NCBI GenBank assembly: GCA_029210985.1 | Contig: JARGFR010000007.1 | Location: forward strand, 1 to 44,616 | Length of the DNA: 44,616 nucleotides | Direction of reading: 5' to 3' | DNA from: Spirochaetaceae bacterium | GTDB lineage: Bacteria; Spirochaetota; Spirochaetia; DSM-2461 | Shown here: positions 23,235-27,293 of the stretch, one piece after another | Numbering within the stretch: the first letter of the stretch is position 1 | How the letters are laid out: every line of letters starts with the position of its first letter | Made by a program: the position numbers and the translations under genes | The notes under the pieces: generated by a model | What the model was told of the DNA's origin: nothing | Seen by the model: the letters and a program-made list of their open reading frames with translations, nothing else | Database searches by the model: none

Positions 23235-23828
23235 TCAGCCCAGATCGATTCGGCTGGAGATGATTCGGGAAATCAGGCCGTATTGCAGAGCCTCTTCCGC
23301 GCTCAGCCAGTAATCACGATCCGTATCGACGGCGACTTTCTTCACATCCTGACCGGTCTCACTCGCAATCAGCTGGTTGATTTTCTCCCTGAGCTTCTCG
23401 AGTTCTTTGGCATGGATTTCGATTTCAGTCGCCACTCCGCGGATTCCCGAGAGCGGCTGATGGAGGAGGAAATGGGCATTGGGAAGACTGAGCCGATTTT
23501 CTTTCTTGGCCGCCAGATGCACAAGAGCGGCGGCACTGGCGACTATTCCCATACCGATGGTGATGACATCCGGTTTGACAAAACGCAGCATGTCGAAAAC
23601 CGCATAACCCGCATCCGCATCCCCTCCAGGGGAATCTATGAACACCTTGATGGGATCATCGCCGTCGGCCTCCAGCAGCAGAAGCTGCCTGATCAACTTC
23701 TCGGCCATTTCCTTATCGATTCCTCCCGAGAGAAGGATTGTCCGAGTCTTGAGCATTTTGACCTGCAGGCCCTCAGAAACATCCTTTCCGTTTTTTTCAT
23801 CTTTATCATCGTCATTCAAATTGAACAT
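23235..23828 (-). CDS. ClpP-family serine protease, variant active-site loop
   Basis: The roughly 197-residue protein is clearly ClpP-like: IKVFIDSPGGDADAGYAVFDML, the nucleophile region GMGIVASAAALV, LPNAHFLLHQP with the catalytic His, and TDRDYWLSAEEALQYGLI with the Asp. The Ser is followed by Ala-Ala where classic ClpP has Met-Gly. This suggests a second, specialised ClpP or a TepA-like peptidase. ATG 23828 is preferred over a GTG six codons upstream because GAGG lies at a proper distance. No Clp ATPase gene or trigger factor is adjacent. It is divergent from era. Confidence 0.85.
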   Translation of the reverse strand: MFNLNDDDKDEKNGKDVSEGLQVKMLKTRTILLSGGIDKEMAEKLIRQLLLLEADGDDPIKVFIDSPGGDADAGYAVFDMLRFVKPDVITIGMGIVASAAALVHLAAKKENRLSLPNAHFLLHQPLSGIRGVATEIEIHAKELEKLREKINQLIASETGQDVKKVAVDTDRDYWLSAEEALQYGLISRIISSRIDLG

Positions 23829-23917
23829 GTATTTTACCTCACTCACGGTCCGGCGCTGTCTACGCGCCGGTTAAAGTAATATAGTGAGCCACGATGAACG
23901 AGACAAGGAGAGACGAA

Positions 23918-24910: not shown

Positions 24911-24994
24911 AAAAAACGGAACGACGGTTCTCAAACACTTTCCTCATCGATCCTTAACTTGCTCGGGATATGTTCCTCGGACAAGGAAGGATCA

Positions 24995-25888
24995 ATGGAC
25001 ATCGAAATCAAAACAATGGAAGGTTCTCTTGCCGTGGTCGTACTCGGTGGAGACATGGATCTGTACTGCGCCGGACAAGTCAGAGATTGCGCCAAAGAAC
25101 ATTGGGAGAAGCGCAAAGACGCCCTTATCATTGATATGGCACGGCTGGATTACATAGATTCCAGCGGCATAGGGACCATCATCAAGCTCTTTGCCGAGGC
25201 CCGGGAAAGGGGACTGGAATTCTTTCTTGCAGCTGTTCCGCCGAACATCTACAAGGTGATGGAATTGACCAAGCTCATCGGCTTCCTTCCTATTTTCGAT
25301 ACCGTCCCGGAGGCGGTGGGCAAGCTCCATAATTCAAGGATTCAACAACGCTCCGAAGTCGATGAACGAGGTCCGCTGCTGATCAACAGTCGGCATCGTC
25401 TTTTCAACACCAACGGGATGAAGCAGAAGGACTTCAATATTGATTTTGGGCGGATTCGATACCTGAGTCACCTTATCAGCCAGCAGGCCCCGCCGGAGAT
25501 ACGGGAATTCAATCTGCTGGAACAGCAAATCAGTGAAATTGTGAAAAATGCCGTACGGCACGGCAATCTGAACGACATCCGCAAGAAGGTGCGGGTGTGG
25601 TATTCCTTCGACACCGGCTATGCGCGCCTCATCATTCAGGATGAGGGGAAGGGGTTTGCCAAGCTGGAAGAATGGAATGAATTCTTCCGCAAACGTATGG
25701 AATGCTTTGAACATCAGAATTATGAAGGCATGGCCGACTACATCAGCTATCGAACCGAAGAGAGCAACGATGACGACGGAGGAAATGCGTTGTTTGCCGC
25801 GGTGGAATACTGGGACGCGGGAGTGGTGTTCAATGAAACACGCAACGCAGTCGCCGTCGGGAAGACCTTCCGTCAACGAAAGCAATAA
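24995..25888 (+). CDS. STAS domain fused to anti-sigma-type serine kinase (HATPase)
   Basis: The 297-residue protein couples two partner-switching modules. Residues 1-112 are a STAS domain with the phosphoacceptor motif IDSSGIG (Ser56/57), as in SpoIIAA/RsbV. Residues about 145-293 are a GHKL ATPase like SpoIIAB/RsbW: N-box EIVKNAVRHGN (Asn185), G1 QDEGKGF (216-221) and a loose G2 with GGNALFAAVEYWD. In normal systems the kinase phosphorylates a separate STAS protein. Here they sit in one chain, so intramolecular control is possible (inference). AAGGAAGG lies just before the ATG. The next gene, convergent, encodes a SpoIIE phosphatase. No sigma factor is seen in the window. Confidence 0.88.
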   Translation: MDIEIKTMEGSLAVVVLGGDMDLYCAGQVRDCAKEHWEKRKDALIIDMARLDYIDSSGIGTIIKLFAEARERGLEFFLAAVPPNIYKVMELTKLIGFLPIFDTVPEAVGKLHNSRIQQRSEVDERGPLLINSRHRLFNTNGMKQKDFNIDFGRIRYLSHLISQQAPPEIREFNLLEQQISEIVKNAVRHGNLNDIRKKVRVWYSFDTGYARLIIQDEGKGFAKLEEWNEFFRKRMECFEHQNYEGMADYISYRTEESNDDDGGNALFAAVEYWDAGVVFNETRNAVAVGKTFRQRKQ

Positions 25889-25909
25889 CAATTCGGCGTG
25901 ACCCGATCT

Positions 25910-27172
25910 TCAGGCACCCAGGCTGTCGTCGCCATGATTCTCAAAATACTTCAGCAGAACGTAGGTGACATCGTCGTGAAGGTGGGCCGCTCCACGGAAA
26001 CGATCAAAATCTTGAATCAGTTCAGTATGGAGATCGTCCAGTTGTCGATGATGATTCTTTCTGATAATCGATTGAATTCGTTCCGGCGTGTAGAGCGCGC
26101 CTTCGAGGTTTTCCTGCTCCAGGAGACCGTCGGTGGGAACCAGGATGATGTCGTTCGGCTGAAGCCTCATTTTGTTTAGAACCGGTTCATTCTCCGGTGT
26201 AATGCCGATGGGAAGGTTGGAACTGTTTGTTTTTATCCGGCTCAATCGCCCGCCTCGATAGAGATAAATATAGGAATGACCCATATCGCAAATCGTCAAC
26301 TTGCCGCTTCGGGCGTTGAAATCCAGGAACATGCCGGTGATGAATTTCTCCGCTTCGAAGGTGCGGAATAAATAGCGGTTGACCTGCCTGATGAACTCGC
26401 CGATTCCTTTGGAAAAGTCAAAGATACTCGACATGCCCCATATGATTGAGGTGATGAGACTGGCGGCCATCCCTTTCCCCGAAACATCACATATTGAAAT
26501 AACCCATTTGTGCGATGAGTAGTTATCCACTGAATAATAGTCGCCTCCGACACCTTTGGCGGTCTTCGAGGAAGCCACGAGGTCGAAAGTCATCTCATGG
26601 TAGCTGGACACCTCTCCGGTGAGCTTCTTCTGCAGGGACCGAGCCATATCCAAATCGCTCTTTGAGAGATCGGACATGTAAATCAGCATTTCCCTCGAGC
26701 TGAATAATCCGCGAAAGGACGCTCTTTTGTCGGTCAGTGCGTACCAGGTGACATCAAGGGAGTGAAGAGCCTCCCCAAGAATCTCATTCACATTATAGAT
26801 ATTTTCGGTAAAGTCGAATGTCGGAACTTTTTCCGCATGCTCCCGGACCGGGCGGCGTCTCAGGACATCCCGTCCGTACGGCCGGGCGAGGGCGCCCATG
26901 ATGTCTCTTCGAACAATGACGCCAAGAACCCTCATGGCGTCATCCAAGACGGCAACGGCCTGGATGGATGGATGTTCGGCCAGATCGTCGGCCAGCTCCT
27001 CAATACTGGAGTGCTGGGAAACATACCAGGACCGATCGCTCAATATCCCGATTGACTGGGTATTCCACTTCTCTTCACCCAGACGGCGAATGACTCGGGA
27101 ACCGGGCGCATCCGCGTAAATTGAAAGGGGTCGGATGACCGCCTCCTCCGTACCAACCATCACACCAGCCAT
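25910..27172 (-). CDS. CBS-domain SpoIIE/RsbU-type PP2C phosphatase
   Basis: The 420-residue protein has a pair of CBS-type units in about residues 40-160 (SIQAVAVLDDAMRVLGVIVRRDIMGAL, and an N-terminal partial repeat). A linker with SDLDMARSLQKKL follows, then a SpoIIE phosphatase domain from about 190. The metal-binding Asp are in GVGGDYYSVD and ICDVSGKGMAASL, and later DGLLEQ and HDDVTYVLLK. SpoIIE enzymes dephosphorylate STAS proteins in partner switching, so the convergent STAS-kinase protein at 24995 is the obvious substrate (inference). CBS domains commonly bind adenine nucleotides and may sense energy state. GGAG eight bases before ATG 27172 supports the start. Confidence 0.9.
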   Translation of the reverse strand: MAGVMVGTEEAVIRPLSIYADAPGSRVIRRLGEEKWNTQSIGILSDRSWYVSQHSSIEELADDLAEHPSIQAVAVLDDAMRVLGVIVRRDIMGALARPYGRDVLRRRPVREHAEKVPTFDFTENIYNVNEILGEALHSLDVTWYALTDKRASFRGLFSSREMLIYMSDLSKSDLDMARSLQKKLTGEVSSYHEMTFDLVASSKTAKGVGGDYYSVDNYSSHKWVISICDVSGKGMAASLITSIIWGMSSIFDFSKGIGEFIRQVNRYLFRTFEAEKFITGMFLDFNARSGKLTICDMGHSYIYLYRGGRLSRIKTNSSNLPIGITPENEPVLNKMRLQPNDIILVPTDGLLEQENLEGALYTPERIQSIIRKNHHRQLDDLHTELIQDFDRFRGAAHLHDDVTYVLLKYFENHGDDSLGA

Positions 27173-27293
27173 ATTCCGTACTCCAGAACGTCAGTTATGG
27201 CGTTAGGATAGAACCGGTCGATGAAGAATTCATTAAATCCTCTAAATCATGTAATAAAAAACGGCCAATTCTTTCTCCGACAGGAATGGAAAA

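Follow-up and report, generated by a model that had tools for sequence, protein, structure and literature searches.

The stretch of DNA analysed here (44 616 nt of a Spirochaetaceae contig; hereafter, the window) carries a two-gene unit, 24911–27293, between the end of era (24910) and that of the oppositely oriented class I lysyl-tRNA synthetase gene (lysK; 27294). The first gene of the unit (24995–25888, + strand, 297 aa from ATG) encodes a STAS domain fused to a GHKL kinase domain; in ORF calling the longest version of this ORF begins 12 codons upstream of the ATG, at TTG. The second gene (25910–27172, − strand, 420 aa) encodes a serine phosphatase of the SpoIIE type with a CBS pair. The two genes are convergent, and 21 bp separate their stop codons. 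An initial annotation, made from the sequence alone, had described both proteins; their domains and the positions of the DSSG, N-box and G1 motifs were found as it had reported them.

The antagonist-like STAS domain of the fusion (aa 11–107; 25025–25315, + strand, as are all features of this gene) matched PF01740 at 7.9e-19 in the Pfam scan (67.8 bits versus a cut-off of 22.6) and had PDB matches to TM1442 and SpoIIAA. The expected phosphorylation site, Ser56/Ser57, lies in the DSSG motif (aa 55–58; 25157–25168); judged by position relative to SpoIIAA, Ser57 is the likelier phosphosite of the two. A serine available for phosphorylation is thus conserved as in the SpoIIAA/RsbV antagonists, with the difference that this domain is fused to a kinase and does not stand alone.

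The kinase domain (about aa 143–292; 25421–25870) is of the HATPase type, RsbW/SpoIIAB-like. Its Pfam match was weak (PF13581, 3.6e-05, 24.2 bits versus a cut-off of 27.4); other evidence came from phmmer, in which the kinase part matched SpoIIAB structures 1tid and 1l0o, from a profile of the fusion family, which matched SpoIIAB and RsbW structures, and from the AlphaFold model, for which Foldseek ranks 1–10 with the kinase part were all SpoIIAB or RsbW chains. Mean pLDDT of the model was 66.5, with mostly 75–93 in the HATPase part (∼61–66 near residues 250–270 and at the C-terminus) and low values in the STAS part, so that the docking of the two domains is not reliable.

Conservation within the kinase was computed on 103 kinase domains from Spirochaetia, both fused to STAS and unfused (split). 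In the N-box EQQISEIVKNAVRHGN (aa 176–191; 25520–25567), which includes a candidate catalytic base, Glu181, and a candidate Mg ligand, Asn185, residues N185, H189, G190 and N191 are invariant in fused and split forms alike, and E181 is present in 92% of fused and 100% of split proteins. The G1 box DEGKGF (aa 216–221; 25640–25657) has D216, G218, G220 and F221 invariant. It is followed, at the position of the ATP lid, by a conserved segment specific to the family (aa 222–260; 25658–25774), with W227 invariant and F230 and S257 found in 92% of fused and 100% of split forms; W273 and N284 are likewise invariant or nearly so. The fusion therefore has the ExxxN N-box and DxGxG G1 box of RsbW/SpoIIAB kinases, and retention of these residues makes kinase activity plausible.

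The G2 box (aa 261–267; 25775–25795) differs from the canonical one. Instead of GxG it has GNA, the second Gly being replaced by Ala according to position in a hand alignment; we therefore call the kinase RsbW-like and do not file it as a member of RsbW/SpoIIAB. The initial annotation had seen this box, read as GGNALF, as loose, and had allowed that the kinase might be inactive. The alignment does not bear this out: DGGNALF is a near-invariant signature of a kinase family spread over the phylum (D261 and G263, 100%; N264, 84–97%; A265, 91–92%), and its near-invariance among the 103 Spirochaetia domains rules out decay of the box. Two of the fusions, at L162 (7770–8834, − strand; G2 DKGVSLL) and L159 (7394–8377, + strand; G2 DNGTALF), are divergent, with G2 altered and the linker longer; neither has an adjoining CBS-SpoIIE gene, and in the former Gln replaces the candidate catalytic Glu181.

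In the phosphatase (all features on the − strand) the CBS pair occupies about aa 45–165 (26678–27040). The Pfam scan detected PF00571 on aa 50–96 (1.8e-06), while a profile of the phosphatase family (17 homologues) matched CBS-pair structures across both repeats; the sensor proposed at the outset is thus supported at the sequence level. The second CBS repeat retains G155-L-F-S158-S-R-E, with G155 and S158 invariant, and its acidic residue sits at what we take to be the expected position of the ribose-binding aspartate. The catalytic SpoIIE (PPM) domain (25946–26515; PF07228, 9.2e-38, 130.5 bits) has motifs GGD, DVSGKG, TDG and DD, with acidic metal-binding residues D211, D229, D348, D400 and D401 invariant in the family. 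Between sensor and catalytic domain we predict an RsbU-like helical linker (about aa 166–200; 26573–26677; D173, A177 and Q181 invariant). In sensor-SpoIIE proteins of the RsbU type such a linker relays the sensor signal that activates the phosphatase (PMC12143880; eLife 100376), and a CBS input to the phosphatase of the window is plausible.

A search of 198 genomes for the same gene pair, as the initial annotation had suggested, revealed true fusions in 13 genomes, all of them Spirochaetia, and the DSSG motif is kept in all 13. In a maximum-likelihood tree of kinase domains a branch supported at 99/98 separates these fusions from all other sequences; the fusion of the window clusters (99/95) with those of three genomes from its own family. 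The simplest reading would be one fusion event; as the root of the kinase tree is not fixed, a later split of an ancestral fusion is also possible. Occurrence in 13 separate genomes and in one clade rules out that the fusion is an artefact of assembly or of a frameshift. The L089 and L092 proteins have a long N-terminal extension, which is most likely an ORF over-extension.

In 11 of the 13 cases (the window, G011, G012, G017, G021, G023, G025, G050, G070, G074 and G175) the next gene codes for a phosphatase of the CBS-SpoIIE type, in convergent orientation at eight loci and in tandem at three; for two of the 11 only the phosphatase domain was seen, in G175 (L071, no CBS detected) and in G023 (L077, gene truncated by contig end). 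The remaining two fusions, G059 and G142, have long branches and no adjoining CBS-SpoIIE gene. The phosphatase tree recovers the same three subclades as the HATPase tree, i.e. the window with G012/G017/G021, G074 with G175, and G050/G070 with G011/G023/G025; its deeper order is not resolved, and CBS-SpoIIE proteins not linked to fusions are interspersed in it. Furthermore, CBS-SpoIIE genes adjoin unfused STAS and kinase genes at nine loci (L148, L153, L156, L160, L161, L163, L164, L166, L168). In G048 and G067 (L053, 829–2700, − strand; L056, 1321–3267, + strand) a CBS-SpoIIE protein carries a C-terminal GHKL-like extension, with motifs HELATNAKKAN and GAGLGIV and no Pfam match, and adjoins a stand-alone DSSG STAS gene. 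The same parts occurring in three arrangements argue that STAS, kinase and CBS-SpoIIE act together. Adjacency, congruent trees, permuted fusions and the insertion as a unit described below all bear out the suggestion that the two proteins are a cognate pair. The lack of a conserved gene association, which the initial annotation had named as evidence against its reading, was not what the genomes showed.

The neighbourhoods of the 13 fusions yielded no third conserved neighbour of the fused form, which had also been sought; MFS transporter, RecQ and MerR-like neighbours are common to one genus only. When the sigma factors of the genome were compared with these neighbourhoods none was found near any fusion, in line with the initial annotation, which had noted no sigma factor nearby.

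The two-gene unit is absent from the site between era and lysK in four relatives (L179, L182, L189, L190). In two genomes of the window's genus (G008, G006) and two of a different one (G011, G020), era and lysK converge with ∼10–90 bp between the matches; in G005 the gap is filled by other sequence, ∼660 bp. No fusion was found in the remaining searched genomes of the window's genus, several of which are incomplete; G011 carries its own fusion pair at another site. Since era and lysK adjoin in four relatives and exactly the two genes lie between them in the window, the lineage of the window probably acquired the fusion and phosphatase genes together, as one unit; the module is apparently mobile. 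A repeat search of the insert showed no convincing mobile-element repeats at its ends, and its GC content (∼0.49–0.54), near or slightly below that of the surroundings, is not diagnostic. On the other side of era, and divergent from it, is a gene of a ClpP-like protease of the PRK14512 type (23235–23846, − strand); the family conserves the order ClpP–era.

In most genomes the STAS and kinase are encoded by separate adjoining genes, often beside a gene for a longer SpoIIE phosphatase, and matches of this split type extend past the class to the rest of the phylum. Most of the apparent ‘full-length’ fusion-like matches in our searches were actually such adjoining genes with a stop between them. 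The genome of the window (G000) has one split STAS and HATPase pair, on contig C222. The split paralogues share with the fusion the DGGNALF G2 box, a DSSG STAS and a SpoIIE gene that often adjoins; they differ from it in having separate genes, a phosphatase of ∼550–750 aa (with GAF, not CBS, in the one scanned) and a kinase placed in a separate part of the HATPase tree. Identity to the split kinase is mostly 50–63%; the STAS part is much less conserved, about 20–40%.

The closest solved folds belong to the B. subtilis systems RsbU–RsbV–RsbW and SpoIIE–SpoIIAA–SpoIIAB, which likewise combine a SpoIIE phosphatase, a STAS substrate and a GHKL serine kinase. In these systems, however, antagonist and kinase are separate, the sigma target is known, the G2 box is canonical and the phosphatase sensor is not CBS. 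The joining of STAS and kinase, seen initially as a departure from the norm, has precedents in Rv1364c, CapK and VapK. In M. tuberculosis Rv1364c kinase and STAS also share one chain, on which a sensor and a SpoIIE phosphatase are found too; that chain has four domains (PAS–phosphatase–kinase–STAS) with PAS as the sensor, whereas in the window the phosphatase is a separate convergent gene. The Rv1364c kinase phosphorylates the STAS of its own chain at Ser600 (PMC9138534). CapK–CapS and VapKSC have an N-terminal STAS followed by a GHKL kinase in one protein; they differ from our module in that the STAS substrate is separate and no phosphatase is described as part of the system (PMC13373217). 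CapK and VapK are linked to an immune operon or to the VapC toxin, and CapK has an HTH (EMBO J 2026, PMC13373217); CapK is activated by ssDNA, and its fused STAS is not its substrate (PMC13373217).

We consider it fairly probable that the two genes constitute one partner-switching module. The GHKL domain would phosphorylate the DSSG serine of its own STAS, either within one chain or between the chains of a dimer; this phosphate would be stripped by the CBS-SpoIIE phosphatase. A ligand bound by CBS, presumably an adenine nucleotide, would set the phosphatase activity via the helical linker. The phosphorylation state of STAS may decide whether STAS masks the face by which the kinase domain binds; the kinase domain, with this face masked or unmasked, would hold or free a target protein. 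That the fused STAS would be the substrate is suggested by DSSG in all 13 fusions and by the precedent of Rv1364c. Several points weigh against the module as proposed: the GNA form of G2, the separate substrate of CapK, a second STAS gene at three loci, the fusions of G059 and G142 with no adjoining CBS-SpoIIE, and the L071 phosphatase with no detected CBS.

The target could be a sigma factor encoded elsewhere in the genome. Such an ordinary sigma-factor partner switch is compatible with the proposed module and would merely name its target; we see it as a serious possibility, somewhat short of an even chance. In fold and motifs the kinase domain matches anti-sigma kinases, and the genome has seven matches to sigma70 region 2, of which one is FliA/WhiG-like and another is group 2-like and has region 1.2. 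No relative of these sigma factors, however, adjoins any fusion, and the kinase family is found instead beside an AAA/TPR protein, a 387-aa protein or a second HATPase.

We regard it as unlikely that the fusion acts in trans in the manner of CapK/VapK, with its own STAS being regulatory or ligand-binding and with a separate STAS elsewhere as the substrate. CapK and VapK do have this architecture and a separate STAS substrate (PMC13373217), the genome of the window has six other STAS matches, and a free-standing second STAS gene is located upstream of the fusion at three of the 13 loci (L071, L097, L159). The latter makes self-containment, claimed initially for the pair, doubtful for the family; around the fusion of the window itself, no second STAS or effector gene is present. 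Contig C319 gave only one STAS match, with no separate STAS substrate gene like those of CapK/VapK beside the fusion. The fused STAS keeps DSSG in 13 of 13 cases, as expected of a substrate, and the partner is a phosphatase, not an immune operon. Finally, that the kinase domain has no catalytic activity and serves as a binding scaffold, with the phosphatase acting on STAS phosphorylated by another kinase, is suggested by GNA in place of GxG, the Pfam score just under the cut-off and Gln at the Glu181 position in the L162 fusion, but is quite improbable with N-box and G1 near-invariant over ∼100 proteins, with G2 conserved rather than decayed, and with a Gly to Ala change that leaves a small residue.

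The module is a real, conserved variant of known partner switching. Its main interest is in the spirochaete kinase family, which has a G2 box of its own, and in the target of that family; we found no study of this target in the papers searched, and nothing useful on T. pallidum TP0218–TP0220. The fused module, compact and paired with a single cognate phosphatase, is a simple setting for finding the target and for testing if partner switching persists once the antagonist is tied to its kinase; it also offers a partner switch with a putative CBS input. One could speculate, quite tentatively, that fusion of antagonist and kinase turns a titration switch into a single-molecule switch, in which the phosphate on Ser57 would open or close one protein, under cytosolic adenylate control via the CBS phosphatase, feeding the same target as the phylum-wide STAS/kinase pair. 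The idea of a common target comes from the higher identity of the kinase in comparison with the STAS part.

Several genes recur around the split pairs. A protein of ∼387 aa (L114, 7004–8167, − strand, and ∼23 other loci) is encoded mostly directly downstream of the split kinase, usually on the same strand, and also at the CBS-SpoIIE loci L164, L166 and L168; it has no credible Pfam match and is a candidate effector of the split module. An AAA_16/TPR-like protein of ∼980 aa (L145, 3541–6504, − strand, and 29 other loci) is found near the split pair, on the opposite strand in nearly all cases. At 12 loci (e.g. L130, 6579–7103, + strand), all in the window's family (f1) and including one on contig C222 of its own genome, a gene just upstream of the split pair encodes a second HATPase, whose G2 box, GTGLF, is canonical.
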